A DNA stretch of 64,000 bases from an uncultured Pelagimonas sp. (GTDB lineage Bacteria; Pseudomonadota; Alphaproteobacteria; Rhodobacterales; Rhodobacteraceae), in assembly GCF_947498515.1 (NCBI RefSeq), contig NZ_CANMKO010000001.1, positions 496,001 through 560,000 on the forward strand, in the 5' to 3' direction. Below, one piece after another: positions 18,474 through 30,003 of the stretch. The first letter of the stretch is position 1. Every line of letters starts with the position of its first letter. Made by a program: the position numbers and the translations under genes. Below the pieces are notes generated by a model. It had not been told where the DNA came from. It worked only from the letters and a program-made list of their open reading frames with translations, and did not search any database.

Positions 18474-18539
18474 CCATTTTTTTGCGCTATGCAGTGGTCA
18501 ATAAGCTGGACAAGCAATCGATAAGGGCAGGTGGGACTG

Positions 18540-19001
18540 ATGGAACTGACAGCACGCGAAGATATCGAAGCACCCCTTGACCGGGTTTTTGCGGAAATCA
18601 CCGATTTCGAAGGGATCGAACGGCAAGTTCTGCGCCGTGGGATTGACGTGCAGCGCACCAATGATCCGGGCGAAGTGGCCGAAGGGCTCAGCTGGGAAGC
18701 CGGTTTCAAGTTCCGCGGCAAGACCCGTACCGCCGCGATTGAACTGGCGCAATATAGCGCGCCGGAACAGATGGTTTTTGACAGCGTATCGGGCGGGCTT
18801 GAGGCGCGCACAACTGTTGATCTGGTAGCGCTGTCGAGGTCGCGTACGCGGATCGGTGTGACAACTGAATTTGTCCCTAAAACTTTGTCGGCGCGTTTGT
18901 TGGTTCAATCGCTGAAACTGGCCAAAGGTGGGCTGGACAAGCGCTTCAAAACCCGGATGGCGCATTTGGCCAAAGATTTGGAAAACCGTCTCAAAGGGTA
19001 A
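18540..19001 (+). CDS. SRPBCC-family protein
   Basis: About 153 residues with the layout of START/SRPBCC lipid- or cofactor-binding folds: an opening AREDIEAPLDRVFAEITDFEG, beta strands such as VVALSRSRTRIGVTTEF, and a long C-terminal helix ending LAKDLENRLKG. The start is uncertain: a GTG at 18531 and an ATG at 18540 both have purine-rich sequence upstream. No catalytic motif is evident, so no reaction can be named. It stands 66 nt after nudC and may be co-transcribed. A double palindrome follows its stop. Confidence 0.75.
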   Translation: MELTAREDIEAPLDRVFAEITDFEGIERQVLRRGIDVQRTNDPGEVAEGLSWEAGFKFRGKTRTAAIELAQYSAPEQMVFDSVSGGLEARTTVDLVALSRSRTRIGVTTEFVPKTLSARLLVQSLKLAKGGLDKRFKTRMAHLAKDLENRLKG

Positions 19002-19087: not shown

Positions 19088-19897
19088 TTAATAGTGGCAC
19101 ACGGCGTTTGCGGTTTGCAACACCACACCGGGGTGATCGGGCAGGCGCAAAAACGTCACCCGCCGGTTTTCAGCCGCTTTGGGGTTGTACTCGTCCTTAA
19201 GCACATGCTCTCCAAACCCCACCGGGTATAGCGGCAATTGCACATAGCTTAGTTCGAGCGCTTCGGTCACGGAGGCGGCGCGGCGCAGGGACAAATCACA
19301 GTTATAGCCCGCCGATCCCACCGCATCCGTATGACCAATCACAGCATAGGGCGTGCCCGCTAGGGCCGGGTCCTGCAACGCCTGAACCAGTTGCGTCAGC
19401 TTGCCAAGTTGGTCGGCGCGGATGTGGTCGCTGTTATAATCAAACTCAATCGAAATCGCGACCGAAGGCAGCGCCACTTTGCCATCCGGATAGGCCGGAT
19501 CGGGGCTATGGGTTTTTGGCGCGGTATGGTCCGCCGCTTTGTACGGGTCTTTCACCGGTGGCGCATCATAGACCGGTGGTTTGGCCGGCGGCTCGGTACT
19601 AATCGCAACCTTGTGATCGTTCAAATCCAGAACCAACGTTTCATATTGCGGGGCAACGGCGCTTTCGAATTGAACACCGTCTTCGCTCCGCCCGACGTTC
19701 GAACAATTGGCGGCCGAGGCATCAAACATACAGCGCGCCAAGGGGTTGGTTGGTTTGGGTTTCATCATCGGAACGGCGTTATCCGCACCGGGTATGAAAA
19801 TCTCTCCGCTTTGGGCCTGTGCCGGTGTTGGGGCCACCAAAGGCAGCCCCACACCAAAACCAAGACACAGGGCGGAGGTTGTGAGGAACTTCAACAT
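19088..19897 (-). CDS. OmpA-family peptidoglycan-associated protein
   Basis: 269 residues with a signal peptide (LTTSALCLGFGVGLPLVAPT, cut near AQAQS). A proline-, histidine- and lysine-rich linker (about residues 104-135) precedes a C-terminal OmpA-like domain (about 147-251): IEFDYNSDHIRADQL, a VIGHTDAVGSAGYNCDLSL stretch and ENRRVTF. That domain normally grips peptidoglycan diaminopimelate. There is no N-terminal beta-barrel and no lipobox. It is the last of three secreted proteins in one operon, 14 nt after the cytochrome-like gene, whose linker has similar low-complexity words (APP, AADH). Confidence 0.88.
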   Translation of the reverse strand: MLKFLTTSALCLGFGVGLPLVAPTPAQAQSGEIFIPGADNAVPMMKPKPTNPLARCMFDASAANCSNVGRSEDGVQFESAVAPQYETLVLDLNDHKVAISTEPPAKPPVYDAPPVKDPYKAADHTAPKTHSPDPAYPDGKVALPSVAISIEFDYNSDHIRADQLGKLTQLVQALQDPALAGTPYAVIGHTDAVGSAGYNCDLSLRRAASVTEALELSYVQLPLYPVGFGEHVLKDEYNPKAAENRRVTFLRLPDHPGVVLQTANAVCHY

Positions 19898-19911
19898 CTC
19901 CGAACTCCTTG

Positions 19912-22335
19912 TTAATGGGCGGTCACAACAACCGAGATCTGTGATTTCACGATCTTGGGGTTGTGGTCGCTAACGCCGCGGTAATCGACACCGGCAACAT
20001 TGTGTTTGTCCTCGCTACCATCGTCACCAAGATCAAGCGCCAGAACTTCGTTCACCACGGTCGCGTATTGATCTTTGCTCAGCGGCTTGTGATCGGCGGC
20101 ACAGGACACTTTCGACGTGTCGCGGGTGTGCAGGTCAATCGCGTCATGCCCGCCGTTACAGATCGCGAGAATGGTTTCCAGCCCCTGATGCGTGGTTTTC
20201 AACGTGCCACGTGGTGGGAAGACATATTGCGAGCCACCCTTGATCACGATGTCATCCAATCCGGGGAAGGGGTACAAGACACAGCTCTGGTGACGATCAT
20301 CAATCGAGATGAGGGTCAGGCGGCAATCGTGACGCGGTTCGATAAAGACTTTCAAACCCTCACCCACGGTATATGTCGGCTTGTCGGTATAAACCGTCAG
20401 ATGTGACTGGCTTGGCACCGAATGGGCCACCGGATCATGCGGTTTGTGATCGGGCTTGGCCACATCTGCATAGGTGGTGATCGGCGTGTCTTTCTTGGCC
20501 GGAGGGGCCGCATAGACCGAGCCATGATCCGCCGCAGGTGGCGCGTATGGTGTGTCTTTGACCACGGCGGCAACCGAGGCGGTTAGGTTGGCCGGGGCCT
20601 TGTGATCGTTGATGATCGGGCGGTAATCCGTCAACTTCTCCATCAAGGCCGGATAGGCGGCGGTCCATTCGTCCCGCGCAATCGGTGATTGCTCAAGCCG
20701 GGTCATTAGACTGGCGAATTGATGTCCGACAAAGGGCATCCGCTTGCGCAACGCGTCTTCGGTCATGCCAAGTTCGTTGGCAGCCTGTTGGAGATCAACG
20801 AAATGATCAACGTGATAGACAAACAACCCGCGGATCGGCTCTAGCCCACCAGCAGTGGTTTCAGGGTCAATCCCGGCCGAGCGCAATGTCTCAAAAAACG
20901 CCTGCTCGTCCTTTTTGAACCACTCCTGAACAACGTCATTGCCCGGATAGATCGCGTCGATGGTTTGACGTGAACTAGGGGACAGGGACAAGTTGTTGAT
21001 CGCCACATCGCGAACCGAGTCATCGTTGTAGCGAATACCCTTGGAGTGGCAGGAAATGCAGCTGATGCCATTCACAACTTCGCCGGTGCCGTCGGAATAA
21101 TCATCATCGCGCACGATGCTGGTTGGGCCAACATCCAAGCGGACGCCTTTTTCGGTATTGAGATAATAGGCATGGAACCCATTGGGCAGGGTAAAGATCG
21201 ACTCGCCGCCATCATGGGTAAAGGCAAGCTCTTCGCCATAGACTTCCTTGGGACCAAGCGGGTATTCAAAGAAGCTTTGCCGCCCCTTTGAACCAGCAAA
21301 GTCATAGGACGTCCAAAAGAACCCGGTGCCAAGGGCATGGCGTTCGATCAGACGGTTGTTGGTGCTGACACCTGAATTCTGGAACCCGGCACGCACCACC
21401 TGTTCGTTGGCGATGTTCTTGACCATGCTGAGGCCCAATAGGCTTTCCAATCCCTGAACCGTGTCCGGCAGGCCAAGCAGGTCGTAGTAAAGCGGCGACA
21501 CTGAGGCGGTTGAGGCAAACCAATCGGCGCGAATGATCGGCACCTCGGTTTTGGCCATGTGCTTAAGCGGGTTGAGATAGGGGTCTGTTTCGCTTGTGTA
21601 CCCATAGGGATAGATGGTTTCGAGCCGGTGCCATTTGGCATGATCCCAATCGATCTCCGGCAGGTATATCCGCATCAACACGCCGTGCTCGTCCACCTTT
21701 TCCCAATTATAGGGTTCGGGGTTCCAGCTCAGTGCATTGATCAATTTGATCGTCGCCTGACGGTAGGCTTCGTAGTTCTCTGGGCTGACATCCTTGTCGT
21801 TATACAAGGGGCGGAGCGAGATATAGCGGATGCGGTCACGGCGATTTGTTGGCTGCTTTTGCAAATCATCATGGGCCAAGCGGTGCAGATCTTCGAGCGA
21901 CACAAACGCCTTTTCGGCAATATTGTCATCAAGCTCGTCGATCCAGAGTTTCAACACCTCAAGCTCTTCTTCCTTGGGGGTGCAATCGGGGGACCAACAA
22001 TTGTCGGGCATCGGAGGCGAGCCACCGGCAATCACCTGATAGAGCTTGGATTTTGTATGATCGCCAAGCGACACAAATTTCGGATCTTGGGCCAAACGGC
22101 GCATGTCCAAGACATGCCCAAACCCGGATTTTGACTTGGCTAAACCGTCGTTCAAAGCGCCATCCTGATGGCACCCGGCACAGTATTTATCCAACACCTG
22201 ATAGGCGGCTTCTTCGGCCGGGGTGGCATCCATAGGTAGGGCAGGAGCCCCGGTTTCATCTTGGGCCCAGGCGGGGGCGGCCAATAATGCCGCCGTTGCC
22301 AAGTAACTGGCCGTCAACAGAACATTGCGTTTCAT
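19912..22335 (-). CDS. Exported diheme-type (CXXCH) protein with DUF4384-like domain
   Basis: 807 residues. A signal peptide ends near AWAQ (residue 25). A first CAGCH heme motif lies at 52-56 in a cytochrome-c-like N-terminal domain, and a second, CISCH, at 426-430 (in a GISCISCHSKGI context) in the centre of a large unrecognised region. A proline/lysine/histidine-rich linker follows (about 580-640), then a DUF4384-like beta-rich domain starting near LTVYTDKPTYTVGEGLKVF (about 645-735), known from surface and signalling proteins. It lies 46 nt after the protease gene and 14 nt before the OmpA-like gene. An oxidoreductase role is inferred only from the heme motifs. Confidence 0.72.
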   Translation of the reverse strand: MKRNVLLTASYLATAALLAAPAWAQDETGAPALPMDATPAEEAAYQVLDKYCAGCHQDGALNDGLAKSKSGFGHVLDMRRLAQDPKFVSLGDHTKSKLYQVIAGGSPPMPDNCWSPDCTPKEEELEVLKLWIDELDDNIAEKAFVSLEDLHRLAHDDLQKQPTNRRDRIRYISLRPLYNDKDVSPENYEAYRQATIKLINALSWNPEPYNWEKVDEHGVLMRIYLPEIDWDHAKWHRLETIYPYGYTSETDPYLNPLKHMAKTEVPIIRADWFASTASVSPLYYDLLGLPDTVQGLESLLGLSMVKNIANEQVVRAGFQNSGVSTNNRLIERHALGTGFFWTSYDFAGSKGRQSFFEYPLGPKEVYGEELAFTHDGGESIFTLPNGFHAYYLNTEKGVRLDVGPTSIVRDDDYSDGTGEVVNGISCISCHSKGIRYNDDSVRDVAINNLSLSPSSRQTIDAIYPGNDVVQEWFKKDEQAFFETLRSAGIDPETTAGGLEPIRGLFVYHVDHFVDLQQAANELGMTEDALRKRMPFVGHQFASLMTRLEQSPIARDEWTAAYPALMEKLTDYRPIINDHKAPANLTASVAAVVKDTPYAPPAADHGSVYAAPPAKKDTPITTYADVAKPDHKPHDPVAHSVPSQSHLTVYTDKPTYTVGEGLKVFIEPRHDCRLTLISIDDRHQSCVLYPFPGLDDIVIKGGSQYVFPPRGTLKTTHQGLETILAICNGGHDAIDLHTRDTSKVSCAADHKPLSKDQYATVVNEVLALDLGDDGSEDKHNVAGVDYRGVSDHNPKIVKSQISVVVTAH

Positions 22336-22381
22336 ATCATTTCTCCTGCTACCGAAGCTGGTGGCTGATTAATGGGTCGAG

Positions 22382-24610
22382 TTAATTACAACTGATGGAA
22401 AGGTACTTTTTCGAGGACCAACCGCGCACACCGGCACGTCCGGCATAGGGAGAGCGGCATTGCCCCGAGATACATTGGATGCGGGCCCAATTGCCGCTTT
22501 GGGCAACCACGCGCACATTGTCCCCCAGATAGACCTCAGAGACTTTGCGCCCCTTGGTCGAGGGTTTGGAGCGCACGGCAAGAAAGCCCGCGCCGGTAGA
22601 GGCGTTATAGTTCGAGACCGGGCGCAAACCACGCACTGTGGCCCGACATTGACGCACATAGGGTTGGGTGGCCGTCAAAAGCGGGGTGTAAACCCAACCC
22701 TTTTGGCCACTCGGCAAAATCACGTTTGACCATTTGCCCGAGCTGCCAACAACCTGAAGGCGGGTGCCGGGATCAATCTCGGTGAAATAGGCATATTGCG
22801 TACCGGGACCGGGGCGCACATTTAGGCCGCCATCCTTGTTGTTGGCCACATACATGATGCGGTTGCTGGGTTTGGGCGTCTGGATCGGCGCTTGGGCACC
22901 GCCACCTTGCCAAAGAACTTCGGCGACATAGCGACGGCCCGAGGAACAATAGCTATCCCCGGGGATGGCCCCTTGGGATTTCAACTGATTGATTTCCCAG
23001 TCAGAACTGGATTTGGAGACCGTTTTGACGGTGATCCCGTAATAGCCGTTGGTGGATTGGAAAATCCGCACACCCGAGCGACCGGGGAACCATTGTTTGG
23101 CAAAGCTGACGGCTTCGGAGATCGAACTGCGCGACGCGGTGACGATGTAGCATTTGCTTGACGATAGGCGGTAGTTGCCGCGCACGGTGTTATAGCTGCC
23201 ACCCCCATTGGCGGGCGGTGGCGTAACAACCGGGGTTTCCAGATAGGTGATCCGGTCAAGCACCACTTGGCCAATACAGGATGTGTTGCTGCCACAGGCA
23301 TCGCGGGTCGAGGTGCGCCATGTCGCCTGCTGACGCGCAGTGCTGCGGCCCGATTGGGTGTTATAGGCGCGCGACAGGCGCTCATCCAAACCGGCCAGAT
23401 AAGCATCGCCACAAATGGCGGCTTCGGTCGGGGTTAGATGCGAGGCGCTGCACCATGGGCGCAAATAAGTGACGGGCACCGGATCAACCGGTTTGGGCTC
23501 AATCGGCGCTGGCGTGATGGGCGGTGTGACCTCGGCGCTTTTGCATTGGTGATTGATAAAGCTTTGGGCAAACGGCGCGAATTTATGCCCCTGACATTGT
23601 TCGACATAGGCGCGATAGGCAAAGCATTCGCCGTATCCCTTGGCCTCGGTATAAAGCGCATCACATAGCGCCCCGGCCTCATCCTGATCTGGGGTTGGCG
23701 GTGTCTCGTCTTTGGGCGGCGTGCCCGTTGGCGGCGTCACCTCAGGCGGGGTTGGATCAACCGGCGTGGCATCGTCTTGCGTGGTCAAAGCCGCCTCAAG
23801 TATTTGAGAGCGTTCAATGATCTCAGACATCGGAATGGCAAAGTTAACACTGTCGCGTTTTGATCCCGCATGATGAAGCCCGACAACCATCTGCAACGAC
23901 GCATCAATCACCGGTGAGCCGGAGTTGCCCGGCAGGGTATCGCAGGTATGCAGCAAGCGGTTGTTAGACAGGGCGGGGTTGTTGGCCTTGCATTTTTCAC
24001 GGCTGATGCGCTGGGCCTCACCCATCGGGTGGCCAATCACCCAATAAGGATCGCCATCATGGGGCGTGGCCGCGGCGAGTTTGAGCATGCCATACTCGGC
24101 GCTCGGGTCACCAAGAACCTCAAGTAACGCATAATCAAGGTCTTCATGCGCCTCAACTGGTGTTGGGCTGACGGTGAATTTCCGGGTGCCTTCTTCGACG
24201 CCTTGTTGGGTGTAGCCGGCCACAAATTGTACCGCGTCAATCCGGGTCGCCCCGGCGCGTTCATTGTCCAAAATACCGGGCACACAGTGGTAATTGGTGA
24301 GAATGTGTTTTTTGTCGACGATAAAGGCGGTGCAGGGAAAAATGCCCTTGTCGGTCAGAATATCCAACCGCCCCACCGAATGGCCGATCTTGGCAAAAAT
24401 ACTTGCCGGGGAATAGTTGCGGATGCTCTCGTTGTTGTAATCGCCAACCGACAATTCAAATTCGATGTCACCGGCGCTGGCGGATTGCTTGCGGTTCAGG
24501 ACGATATTGCCGAAATCGCCACGATCAAACCCAACGATGTCTTGCGCAAGGGCCGGGGCCTGTGGGCTAAGCCCAGCGATCAATGCAATGGCAGCGACAA
24601 AATTGCGCAC
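22382..24610 (-). CDS. Exported trypsin-like serine protease with LprI-like and SH3 domains
   Basis: 742 residues with a signal peptide ending near PALAQ. The trypsin-fold domain has the triad His108 (LTNYHCV), Asp159 (LDYALLE) and Ser230 (GNSGSPV). Then come a proline-threonine-rich linker (281-308), a short Cys-rich part, an LprI-like segment (about 387-457, LTPTEAAICGDAYLAGLDE with WRTSTRDAC), an unassigned domain (475-565, possibly SPOR-like) and two bacterial SH3 units (about 587-645 and 655-742, the first with GLNVRPGPGTQY). The triad is intact. First gene of the envelope operon; SH3 units suggest binding to cell-wall peptides. Confidence 0.8.
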   Translation of the reverse strand: MRNFVAAIALIAGLSPQAPALAQDIVGFDRGDFGNIVLNRKQSASAGDIEFELSVGDYNNESIRNYSPASIFAKIGHSVGRLDILTDKGIFPCTAFIVDKKHILTNYHCVPGILDNERAGATRIDAVQFVAGYTQQGVEEGTRKFTVSPTPVEAHEDLDYALLEVLGDPSAEYGMLKLAAATPHDGDPYWVIGHPMGEAQRISREKCKANNPALSNNRLLHTCDTLPGNSGSPVIDASLQMVVGLHHAGSKRDSVNFAIPMSEIIERSQILEAALTTQDDATPVDPTPPEVTPPTGTPPKDETPPTPDQDEAGALCDALYTEAKGYGECFAYRAYVEQCQGHKFAPFAQSFINHQCKSAEVTPPITPAPIEPKPVDPVPVTYLRPWCSASHLTPTEAAICGDAYLAGLDERLSRAYNTQSGRSTARQQATWRTSTRDACGSNTSCIGQVVLDRITYLETPVVTPPPANGGGSYNTVRGNYRLSSSKCYIVTASRSSISEAVSFAKQWFPGRSGVRIFQSTNGYYGITVKTVSKSSSDWEINQLKSQGAIPGDSYCSSGRRYVAEVLWQGGGAQAPIQTPKPSNRIMYVANNKDGGLNVRPGPGTQYAYFTEIDPGTRLQVVGSSGKWSNVILPSGQKGWVYTPLLTATQPYVRQCRATVRGLRPVSNYNASTGAGFLAVRSKPSTKGRKVSEVYLGDNVRVVAQSGNWARIQCISGQCRSPYAGRAGVRGWSSKKYLSISCN

Positions 24611-25208: not shown

Positions 25209-25937
25209 CTATAGGACACGAGACAAAAACGCCTTGGTTCGTTCTTCTTGTGGGGATTCAAAGATCTGTTCCGGCGTCCCGTCTTCGAGAATGCGCCCCT
25301 GATCAAGAAAGCACACTTTGTCGGCCAACTCTCGGGCAAAGCCCATTTCATGGGTGGCCAAAACCATGGTCATGCCTTGGGCGCGCAGGTCGCGCAAAAC
25401 ATCGAGCACCTCGCCAACCAACTCCGGATCAAGCGCGGAGGTGATTTCGTCAAACAGCATGATTTCAGGCCGCATCGCTAAGGCTCGTATGATCGCGACA
25501 CGTTGCTGTTGACCGCCCGAGAGCTGATCAGGGTAGTGCAACATCCGATCGGCAAGGCCAAAGCGCGCGAACATCTCTTCGATTTCGGGGCGCAGTACGG
25601 ATTTGGATTTTCCGGTGATCCGGCGCGGCGCCAAAATCGCATTATCAAGTGCGGTCATATGCGGAAACAGGTTGTAGCTTTGAAAGACCATACCAATGCG
25701 TTGGCGCACCGGCTGTGGGTCTTTACCCGGTTCTGAAATGTCATCGCCGTCAAGCAAGATGCGCCCATCATCTATCGGTTCCAATAGGTTCATACAGCGC
25801 AGCAAGGTCGATTTTCCAGAACCCGACGCGCCGATCAAACAGACCATATCGCCCTGTGAAATGGTCAAATCAATGCCGCGAATAACCGGGTTGTCGCCAA
25901 AGGCTTTTTGCACGTTTTCAAGGACAAGATCGGCCAT
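25209..25937 (-). CDS. Polar amino acid ABC transporter, ATP-binding protein
   Basis: 242 residues: Walker [12 protein letters not shown] (near 33-43), Q-loop [11 protein letters not shown], signature LSGGQQQRV (near 140), Walker [14 protein letters not shown] and the switch His in ATHEMGFA. The sequence, including the [18 protein letters not shown] stretch, is of the GlnQ/HisP type. It overlaps the permease gene by one base. Substrate not determinable. Confidence 0.95.
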
Positions 25938-26755
25938 TAGCTACGCGCCTTGGATTGTTTGTTCATCAGGTAATCCGCATAGCGAGTAGCGGGGATGGTC
26001 AGCGCCAAAAAGATCAGCGCCGCCCCGACATAGGGGGTAAAATTAGCCATCAGGGATTTGTAGACCCCGGCTTGGCGGAAAATCTCAACCGGGCCGATAA
26101 AGCTAAGCAGTGCCACGTCTTTTTGCAGGGCGATGAATAGGTTCATATTGGCCGGAACCACTCGGCGCACGGCCTGGGGCAGGATGACAAAGCGCATCGC
26201 GTCGCCCCCCGATAGGCCAAGGGATAGGGCGGCGTTACGCTGGCTGTCGTGGATGGACTCAATGCCCGAGCGGATCACCTCGGCCACATAGGCGGAATAG
26301 ACGAGGACCAGCGCCAAAGACCCCCAGATATAAGGGGAATTCCAAGGGCGCGGCAGGCCGAGACCGGGAATACCAAAGCCAATTAGATAGATTACCAGTA
26401 TGACAGGCAGGCCACGGAAAATATCGGTATAGGCGATGGCGAAAAGCCGGAGCGGATAGAAGGCGGGATTGCGCAGGTCGCGAGCGATGGCCACGGCCAA
26501 GCCAAGCGCGGCAATCAGAGGCGCGCACCAAAGGAAAATTGCCACATCCATGACAAAGGCTTCGAGCAGGCCGGGAAAGGTTTTGGCAAACACCGCGCCG
26601 TTGAAAAAGCTGCGTTTGACGTTTTCCCAACCGGGGGTCAGCGGGATCAAAAGGATGATGGCGGCAAAAACGGCGATAGTCGAAATCGCGGCAATGGTAT
26701 TGGCGCGTTTGCGCTGTCGGGCCTCGAAAATCTGGCGACGGGTTTGTTGGGGCAT
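25937..26755 (-). CDS. Polar amino acid ABC transporter, permease
   Basis: 272 residues with an N-terminal cytoplasmic stretch rich in Arg/Lys, several membrane segments and the HisM/GlnP-type EAA-like loop ([20 protein letters not shown], near 160-180) followed by [12 protein letters not shown]. One permease gene is present, so the transporter would use a homodimer unless a second permease lies elsewhere. Two hairpins stand between this gene and the upstream binding-protein gene. Confidence 0.93.
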
Positions 26756-28654: not shown

Positions 28655-29275
28655 TCAGATGTCAAAAAACACGGTTTCGCCGTCACCTTGGACGCGAATG
28701 TCGAAACGGTAAATGATTTTGCCGTCCTGTACGGTCCGTTTGGCAATCAGCGTCGCACGGCGGTTTTCCCATTCGATGACATTAAGCACCGGATCGGCGG
28801 CATTCGCCTCAGCTTCGTCGTCGAAATAGAGCCGTGTGTTGAGGCCCAAATTGATGCCCCGCGCCACGACCCATAGATTGATATGGGGCGCTTGGGTGGT
28901 GCCATTGCGGCCCGGAACTGGGCCCGGTTTGACGGTGTCAAAGCTCCATTCTCCGGTCTCAAACTCTGTGATGACACGGCCAAACCCGCGAAACCCGTCC
29001 TCGACCTCTCCGTCGCTTTCGGGATGGGCATAGACGCCATCGGCGTTTGCCTGCCACGCTTCGAGCAACACGTCCTTGATCGGGGAACCAGTGCCGTCAA
29101 TCACGATGCCCTGAACCGTGATCCGTTCGCCCGCCGCCTTGGGACCGGCGATGTCTTTACCAAGTTCTTGGTCATAGATGTCAAAACCCGCCGCGCCGGG
29201 GGCGAGGCCAATATGCACGTAAGGACCGGCGGTTTGGGACGGGGTCTCTTTTAGATAGCTAAGGTCTTGGGCCAT
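28655..29275 (-). CDS. pcaG: Protocatechuate 3,4-dioxygenase alpha subunit
   Basis: 206 residues, intradiol ring-cleavage dioxygenase fold: TPSQTAGPYVHIGLAP near the N terminus, GERITVQGIVIDGTGSPI, and the strand-loop EWSFDTVKPGPVPG followed by APHINLWVVARG. As in other PcaG proteins the iron ligands of the beta subunit are absent, so this subunit shapes the active site. It starts 2 nt after the pcaH stop. Together with PcaH it opens protocatechuate to beta-carboxy-cis,cis-muconate. Confidence 0.96.
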   Translation of the reverse strand: MAQDLSYLKETPSQTAGPYVHIGLAPGAAGFDIYDQELGKDIAGPKAAGERITVQGIVIDGTGSPIKDVLLEAWQANADGVYAHPESDGEVEDGFRGFGRVITEFETGEWSFDTVKPGPVPGRNGTTQAPHINLWVVARGINLGLNTRLYFDDEAEANAADPVLNVIEWENRRATLIAKRTVQDGKIIYRFDIRVQGDGETVFFDI

Positions 29276-29277
29276 GA

Positions 29278-30003
29278 TCAGTTCCCCTCCAGACGGTTTT
29301 CAAACAGGGTGGAGCGGCGACCACGCAGCACGATGTCGAACTTGTAGGCGATTGAATCCAAAGGGATTGTCGCATTCATGTCAAGTGCGGCTGTCACAGC
29401 CTGGACCCCATCTGGATCGGGAATTGTTTGAACAATCGGGCATTTGGCAATCAGAGGATCGCCCTCAAAATAGCATTGGGTGATGAGGCGTTGGGTAAAG
29501 CCCGAGCCAAAGATCGAGACGTGGATATGCGCCGGGCGCCAGTCGTTCACCCAGTTGCGCCACGGATAGGCACCGGGTTTGACCGTGCGGAAAAAGTAGT
29601 AGCCGTTTTCATCGGTTAGCGTCCGCCCACAGCCGCCAAAATTGGGGTCAATCGGGGCAAGATAGGTGTCTTTCTTGTGGCGATACCGGCCACCGGCGTT
29701 GGCCTGCCAAATCTCAACCATGGTGTTTGGCACAGGACGGGCGTTTTCGTCCAAAACGCGGCCGTGCAAGATGATGCGTTCGCCAATCGGGCTTTGGCCA
29801 TCGGCGGCGTAGTTGCGGATCAGGTCGTTGTCGATGGGCGAAATATCGGAATGGCCAAAGCGCGGCCCGGTGATTTCGGACACGGTGTTTTCAAGGCTGA
29901 TCGCAGCGAAATTTGGTGACCGCGTGACGCTGGTTTTGTAATCCGGCGTCAGGGCAGGGGCATGGCGTTGGCGATCACGCTGGTAGTATTCTGCGGGTTT
30001 CAT
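29278..30003 (-). CDS. pcaH: Protocatechuate 3,4-dioxygenase beta subunit
   Basis: 241 residues. The non-heme Fe(III) ligands can be read: Tyr in [10 protein letters not shown], Tyr in [10 protein letters not shown], and the two His in [11 protein letters not shown]. The Pca beta N-terminal extension ([20 protein letters not shown]) is present. Overlaps pcaC by four bases. Catalytic subunit of the PcaGH oxygenase. Confidence 0.97.

Follow-up and report, generated by a model that had tools for sequence, protein, structure and literature searches.

Do three adjacent genes for a trypsin-like protease, a protein with two heme-attachment (CXXCH) motifs and a DUF4384 domain, and an OmpA-like protein form one system of the bacterial envelope, and if so, which part of it does the work? 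The question is raised by a 64,000-nucleotide stretch of DNA, hereafter the window, from an uncultured Pelagimonas sp. (contig NZ_CANMKO010000001.1, positions 496,001 to 560,000), in which the three genes, here called Prot, Cyt and OmpA, lie in a single run on the minus strand. A preliminary description made from the letters of the window had proposed that the three products make up one envelope assembly, and had named the absence of conserved linkage in other genomes as evidence to the contrary. We found that Cyt and OmpA are linked in most of the loci surveyed, that the protease beside them is exchanged between three peptidase classes, and that the catalytic residues, heme motifs, wall-binding motif and secretion-type N-termini of the partners are conserved.

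We scanned 84,980 species genomes with two peptide patterns and analyzed the neighborhoods of the best 80 of the 204 relatives of Cyt that were recovered (loci L043–L122). Of these 80 loci, 65 had an OmpA gene no more than 3 kb from Cyt and 66 had a peptidase gene no more than 5 kb away, so the linkage whose absence would have spoken against a common assembly is present in other genomes. Both partners were concentrated around Cyt: closer than 3 kb to Cyt there were 86 protease genes in 441 kb (0.195 per kb), whereas from 5 kb outward there were 3 in 611 kb (0.005 per kb). The corresponding numbers of OmpA genes were 65 and 0. Gene order shifted with content kept, the protease being on the other strand in one locus (L064) and after OmpA in another (L065). 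Within the family to which the window belongs, relatives of Cyt were present in 17 of 295 genomes, its own included. At the 16 other loci, viewed in stretches of 18–20 kb, OmpA adjoined Cyt in 14 and the partner protease varied; the exceptions were a locus with OmpA ~6 kb from Cyt (L033) and one in which no OmpA gene was found (L035). A phylum-wide search of 398 genomes gave matches in six, two of them weak (E = 2.4e-4 and 4.8e-4). On a plasmid of Neorhizobium petrolearium, the NCBI annotation lists a caspase family protein, an OmpA family protein, a ferredoxin reductase family protein and a c-type cytochrome, again in a different order.

What changes from locus to locus is the protease. Within 5 kb of Cyt, the partner was a trypsin (class S1) in 23 of the 80 loci, a caspase (C14) in 26, a subtilase (S8) in 16, and both a C14 and an S8 enzyme in one (L088), with none in the remaining 14; an S1 and a C14 enzyme were found together in 0 of the 80. 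The subtilase partner came to light because Afipia-type loci had neither a trypsin nor a caspase by profile. Of five like-placed genes, four matched Pfam Peptidase_S8, and the fifth (in L101, which belongs to another Cyt clade) was glutamate-synthase-like. Such partner genes are rare genome-wide; in Afipia birgiae, the single S8 gene found is, by its coordinates, the one at the Cyt locus. A quick, unrooted tree built from 87 middle domains of Cyt placed the trypsin loci on one side of a branch (24 of 24 rows, with a Shimodaira–Hasegawa-like approximate likelihood-ratio support of 99), the subtilase loci inside one clade and the caspase loci in both deep branches; two changes suffice to account for the three protease labels. 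Because it is found in both deep branches, the caspase looks ancestral, and the simplest reading would be that a caspase came first and was swapped once for a trypsin and once for a subtilase, with L088 keeping both, although the direction of change is our interpretation of a tree without a root. By lineage, the trypsin versions belong to the Rhodobacterales and the subtilase versions to the Afipia/Bradyrhizobium group. One typical Rhodobacterales trypsin-type locus (L051) stands under the title of Enemella evansiae, a propionibacterium, and that assembly may be mislabeled or mixed.

The exchanged enzymes have kept their catalytic residues. The His and Ser patterns of the trypsins were intact in 26 of 26, the catalytic pattern of the subtilases in 17 of 18 frames (the remaining one being a fragment), and the His and Cys patterns of the caspases in 57 of 66. 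H108, D159 and S230 of Prot were invariant in an alignment of 24 proteases, made up of the one from the window and 23 that represent all trypsin loci but L048 (22 of 23); judged from their sequence context these residues are the catalytic triad, and the earlier account of an intact His-Asp-Ser protease thus holds. An AlphaFold2 (AF2) model of Prot (predicted local distance difference test [pLDDT] 75.9, predicted template modeling score [pTM] 0.38) matched Esp/V8-type proteases (Z 23.6, root-mean-square deviation [rmsd] 2.7, 201 residues aligned) and DegP (Z 22.9). Signal-like N-termini were found in 24 of 25 trypsins, 59 of 66 caspases and 15 of 18 subtilases, as well as in 65 of 71 OmpA proteins and 76 of 84 Cyt proteins, and several of the failures were frames called too long. 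Caspases also occurred in tandem, with up to three within 5 kb of Cyt among the 80 loci.

Behind the catalytic domains, the C-terminal parts of trypsins and caspases vary in their domains (SH3, LprI, SPOR, Sel1, WD40, PAN and others). In the alignment of 24 proteases, the C-terminal half of Prot was far more variable than the catalytic half, the relatives having mostly SH3 units, with Sel1 repeats in L030 and a SPOR domain in L028 (Pfam, E = 2.1e-5); L029 has a second copy of the protease with WD40 repeats. Prot itself bears the two SH3 units attributed to it (SH3_3 in two stretches, 68.5 bits; a match to PF18348, E = 0.0014, is below its cut-off). The LprI-like unit attributed to it is sub-threshold, its score lying below the family cut-off, although LprI exceeds that cut-off in caspases of the related loci L032 and L034. 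The order of strands and helices in the AF2 model is suggestive only of a SPOR-like segment at residues 486–566, where Pfam gave no SPOR match. Elsewhere in the window's genome, which holds nine Trypsin_2 genes and four C14 genes, two trypsin-like proteins paralogous to Prot are encoded in tandem on contig C3 (726 and 699 amino acids; L123:6684-11070), and the C-terminal half of one of them is a right-handed beta-helix.

Around these variable enzymes stand Cyt and OmpA. The CAGCH and CISCH motifs of Cyt, previously described as sharing one 807-residue chain with a DUF4384-like domain, were located there, the DUF4384 match exceeding its cut-off. Both motifs were invariant in 17 aligned sequences, that of the window included. 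In an alignment of 52 (that of the window and 51 drawn from the 80 loci), C52, C55, H56, M109 and P110 were conserved in at least 90% and C426, C429 and H430 in all 52. In its N-terminal domain Cyt resembles a class I cytochrome c. A match of Cyt to Cytochrome_CBB3 scores 23.8 bits, below the cut-off of 27. Among 81 Cyt frames (the window and the 80 loci), 57 have two CXXCH motifs, 21 have four and 3 have one; the four-motif forms that we inspected are longer, with an extra N-terminal region bearing two motifs. For residues 140–580, which span the middle domain, Pfam returned no family over its cut-off. Other searches were similarly sparing: Foldseek with the whole AF2 model of Cyt (pLDDT 80.1, pTM 0.83) gave no match below E = 0.049, and a profile search against solved structures gave weak matches alone, the best being cytochrome c (E = 0.011). 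A VIA-align comparison, which covered essentially residues 643–807 of the model, the C-terminal DUF4384 region, matched this part to complement C5 (Z 8.8, rmsd 1.9, 91 residues aligned). Because the macroglobulin-type beta-sandwich that it appears to resemble is a common arrangement, the likeness is a hint, no more, of a binding domain. As for OmpA, the peptidoglycan-binding domain assigned to it is well founded: PF00691 scores 43.9 bits against a cut-off of 27.2, and the peptidoglycan-binding motif (the wall-binding Asp and Arg context) is present in 71 of the 72 OmpA domains of the set, which fits a predicted anchoring of this protein to the wall. Matches to PG_binding_1 in L030, L031 and L067 were all below cut-off.

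Two further associations were seen. Of the 26 caspase loci, 13 had a NOX-like flavocytochrome reductase gene no more than 3 kb from Cyt, as had 2 of the 14 protease-less loci; in that interval the 23 trypsin loci and the 16 subtilase loci had none. DUF4384 in turn occurs fused to proteases: to caspases in L096 and L106 (over cut-off) and in L071 (below it, 23.0 bits), and, over cut-off in both cases, to a trypsin in L144 and to a trypsin-caspase chain in L136, the latter with an OmpA gene nearby; L145 has a DUF4384-kinase fusion. The window's genome has three DUF4384 genes, each of them no more than ~3 kb from OmpA genes and S1 or C14 genes. The two besides Cyt bound a cluster on contig C3 (~173119-185489; L124:5119-17489) with the order DUF4384, WD40 plus caspase-like, OmpA, trypsin, caspase with a long C-terminal part, unknown, OmpA, DUF4384. 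In this cluster, which has no cytochrome, S1 and C14 genes co-occur, and the DUF4384/OmpA/protease theme thus recurs without the heme protein. DUF4384 is present in 21 of 240 genomes of the class; of 20 DUF4384 loci from 19 genomes (those other than G000 and G055), 10 had OmpA within 5 kb, 5 had a protease by profiles and 4 had both, so the association is frequent, not universal. Profiles found neither OmpA nor a protease within 8 kb of a shorter cytochrome-DUF4384 protein in another genome (G649, L150). A DUF4384 locus of a different kind (L142:1919-17110) contains a frame with ten CXXCH motifs, two more multi-CXXCH frames and a reductase-like gene, with OmpA ~7 kb off.

We interpret these loci, tentatively and with slightly less than even confidence, as an envelope module of Alphaproteobacteria in which a heme-DUF4384 protein and a wall-anchored OmpA protein position or gate an exchangeable protease. 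Its constant core would be a secreted protein that bears two heme motifs, or four, and ends in DUF4384, together, mostly, with a peptidoglycan-holding OmpA protein, and its output would be a replaceable secreted caspase, trypsin or subtilase. That the output is proteolysis, with the other parts placing or controlling the enzyme, is suggested by the exchange of folds with intact catalysis, by the tandem copies and by the turnover of recognition domains. A redox input is suggested by the heme motifs, together with the reductase in some loci, and a location at the wall by the OmpA, SH3 and SPOR domains. In such a module the heme protein would read the redox state of the periplasm or its oxidant load, fed in some caspase versions by the NOX-like reductase, and, by way of DUF4384 docked on the OmpA anchor, would hold the protease in place and license it under envelope stress. 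The variable C-terminal domains would direct trypsins and caspases to the wall, or else to targets that are damaged or foreign. Heme loading, a physical complex, redox gating, a stress role and the substrate are the elements of this scheme that we infer.

An evolutionary extension of the scheme is decidedly doubtful: the pairing of a periplasmic cytochrome with a caspase might be ancestral in Alphaproteobacteria, the wall-anchored heme protein licensing a proteolytic death or defense switch, with the trypsin and subtilase swaps coming later. The periplasm corresponds to the mitochondrial intermembrane space, and cytochrome c controls caspases in animals; the bacterial switch would then be analogous to the animal one, a parallel that we regard as a long shot and that does not imply homology.

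A number of observations weigh against the proposed module. Our survey figures rest on the best 80 of 204 relatives, and the two peptide patterns restrict what could be found; moreover, the locus counts are not independent, because many of them come from the same genera (Afipia, Ensifer, Shinella, Mameliella and Pelagimonas). No protease was found in 14 of the 80 loci. In eight of these a contig end lies less than 2.5 kb from Cyt, and six have enough flank (L073, L101, L104, L108, L117 and L122); a scan of five neighbors in L104, L122, L117 and L073 revealed no peptidase of the three classes. Seven C14 loci and four S8 loci are without OmpA within 3 kb of Cyt, and 9 of the 66 caspase open reading frames (ORFs) fail the His/Cys pattern, at least one of them being a fragment. 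The Cyt tree is a quick one that came with a long-branch warning. In addition, part of the linkage in Rhodobacterales may be shared synteny, because relatives of the ATPase and permease genes upstream of the trio (window 25209-26755), which we take to encode an amino-acid-type ATP-binding cassette (ABC) transporter, are near in 17 of the 23 trypsin loci.

This shared transporter is what would favor one alternative, that the three genes have independent functions and are joined by ordinary synteny. We consider it very improbable in view of the 40-fold enrichment of proteases within 3 kb of Cyt, the rearrangement of gene order with content kept, and the fusions of DUF4384 to proteases. The same transporter would also fit a substrate-specific extracytoplasmic enzyme, with the middle domain of Cyt catalytic and the protease only removing an inhibitor or recycling protein. 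The middle domain, more conserved than any other part of Cyt and belonging to no Pfam family, is consistent with such an enzyme. Against it, the trio and the two transporter genes were the only genes of the stretch tested whose relatives were near in over half of the trypsin loci (23, the one group of loci covered), and we find it improbable. A maturation role, in which the protease would process Cyt or OmpA within a respiratory or metabolic cytochrome system, seems to us no less improbable. QhpE is the subtilase partner of a heme enzyme, quinohemoprotein amine dehydrogenase, and the NCBIfam QhpE model matches the S8 protein below threshold (76.2 against 165 bits); the NOX-like reductase and the presence of up to four CXXCH motifs would likewise suggest electron flow. 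However, the NCBIfam model that the S8 protein fits best is not QhpE but mycosin (188.7 bits, cut-off 278.75), no quinohemoprotein dehydrogenase family appeared among the selected neighbors that we scanned, and the change of fold, the multiplication and the changing recognition domains are unexpected for a processing enzyme.

A further alternative is envelope defense or self-killing, in which the protease would be an effector of suicide or of attack on phages, predators or competitors, with the redox part as no more than its trigger. Trypsin/caspase exchange, tandem copies and variable C-terminal domains all resemble the conflict systems treated in the available text of PMC7159879; occurrence in the family is patchy, and the matches in PADLOC-DB 2.0.0 (2023) were generic protease-domain and MotB-like ones only. 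Yet this database gave no match for Cyt, and the trio, its three flanking genes and the selected neighbors of relatives contain no NTPase, gasdermin or pore family. In the trio and the three flanking genes specifically, no NTPase core (MoxR/vWA, STAND or GTPase) exceeded its Pfam cut-off, a flanking gene at 18531-19001 having a weak match to CbbQ_C (16.5 against 20.6 bits), and Pfam found no gasdermin family. Cyt relatives appeared in just one of 72,556 plasmid records and, as one partial match, in 50,697 phage records, so mobility is no theme in these collections. On balance we judge defense or self-killing unlikely. A 595-kb record titled "uncultured phage" (LR756511.1; L153) has 27% identity to Cyt over 39% of the query (residues 248–561); it is unannotated, and may be either a huge phage or a mis-assigned bacterial contig.

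Comparison with described systems places the proposed envelope module near several of them. NTP-dependent conflict systems, as presented in the accessible part of PMC7159879, have mutually exclusive trypsins and caspases around a constant core, variable attached domains, and OmpA and Sel1 in some subsystems. The exclusion of trypsin and caspase holds in the 80 Cyt loci, but not in the L124 cluster, and those systems use NTPases, whereas the trio has secretion-type N-termini, a heme-motif protein and OmpA, and no NTPase. Of 217 metacaspase operons tabulated, 14 had OmpA domains, and Alphaproteobacteria include operons with several metacaspases (Asplund-Samuelsson et al., 2012; PMC3501461); the word "cytochrome" is absent from the main text of that study, the accessible passages describe no protease exchange, and the trio has an S1 enzyme and, by Pfam, no C14. 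Trypsin, pseudo-orthocaspase and DUF4384 are combined, with the trypsin intact, in one alphaproteobacterial protein group reported in the main text of PMC6426788, to which the architecture of L136 is related; that text mentions neither OmpA nor cytochrome, and in the window trypsin and DUF4384 sit on separate proteins. DUF4384 is also reported on cyanobacterial orthocaspases, according to the accessible text of PMC7475262. With the HtrA/Deg envelope proteases Prot has the periplasmic trypsin fold in common, but Pfam found no PDZ domain in Prot at E values up to 1, and Prot instead has SH3 units and an operon with a cytochrome and OmpA. Cyt, for its part, has two CXXCH motifs in one secreted chain, as do the di-heme cytochrome c peroxidases and MauG, but the profiles of this group score below their cut-offs (CCP_MauG, PF03150, 12.9 against 25.6 bits; NF040606, 17.3 against 150 bits).

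In the literature that we searched, which mostly excluded subscription journals, we found no description of the cytochrome-OmpA-protease set. Gene content and this limited search thus point to an undescribed envelope system with an exchangeable cutting part. Protease exchange around constant partners was familiar from cytosolic conflict systems (PMC7159879, available text), and here it would operate outside the cytoplasm, in the company of a wall anchor and a c-type cytochrome. For bacterial caspases, most of which lack a known role, this would supply a concrete compartment, partners and a testable redox input, and DUF4384 would have a putative function as an adaptor common to envelope proteases.

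In the window, the ORFs, strand and coordinates of the trio agree with the three closely spaced, signal-bearing proteins first described: the gaps are 46 nucleotides between Prot and Cyt and 14 between Cyt and OmpA, and all three proteins pass a simple signal-sequence rule. Sites resembling AGGAG precede Cyt and OmpA. Against four relatives, the ratio of nonsynonymous to synonymous substitution rates (dN/dS) was 0.06–0.28 for the three genes (11 of 12 pairs computable), which indicates purifying selection on all of them. Scans of the region gave no excess of promoter-like sites (3, with 4.0 expected by chance) or terminator-like sites (4, with 8.3 expected). The P/H/K-rich linkers of Cyt and OmpA, remarked on earlier for their similarity, are real, with P+H+K fractions of 0.27 and 0.24 compared with 0.14 for the whole proteins in the 23 trypsin loci, but their likeness is ordinary; across these loci the two fractions correlate with rho 0.42 (p = 0.044, kinship ignored).

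Coordinates of the trio and its domains in the window (positions counted from its first letter; aa, amino acids)
Feature	Position	Strand	Description	Basis
Prot	22382..24610	-	742 aa, GTG start, secreted-type trypsin-like protease	ORF call, Pfam, alignment
Trypsin-like domain of Prot	23876..24334	-	aa 93-245	Pfam PF13365 (Trypsin_2), E 6.8e-20, 72.7 bits
LprI-like segment of Prot	23294..23446	-	~aa 389-439, sub-threshold	PF07007, E 0.022, 15.5 bits, cut-off 22
SPOR-like segment of Prot	22913..23155	-	~aa 486-566, suggestive only	AF2 model, secondary-structure order only: strand-helix-strand-strand-helix-strand
Two bacterial SH3 units of Prot	22472..22831	-	aa 594-643 and ~679-713	PF08239 in two stretches, E 5.5e-19
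Cyt	19912..22335	-	807 aa, two-CXXCH protein, C-terminal DUF4384	ORF call, Pfam, AF2 model
Heme motif 1 of Cyt, CAGCH	22168-22182	-	aa 52-56, in N-terminal class I-like cytochrome c domain	Sequence
Heme motif 2 of Cyt, CISCH	21046-21060	-	aa 426-430, inside middle domain	Sequence
Middle domain of Cyt	20596..21897	-	~aa 147-580, holds heme motif 2 and most invariant columns	
DUF4384 of Cyt	20158..20376	-	aa 654-726	PF14326, 28.9 bits, cut-off 27
OmpA	19088..19897	-	269 aa secreted-type protein, peptidoglycan-binding OmpA domain (19166-19444)	PF00691, E 3.1e-11

Farther along the window, positions 28655-30003 hold two frames, the first of which presumably encodes a protocatechuate-type ring dioxygenase subunit.

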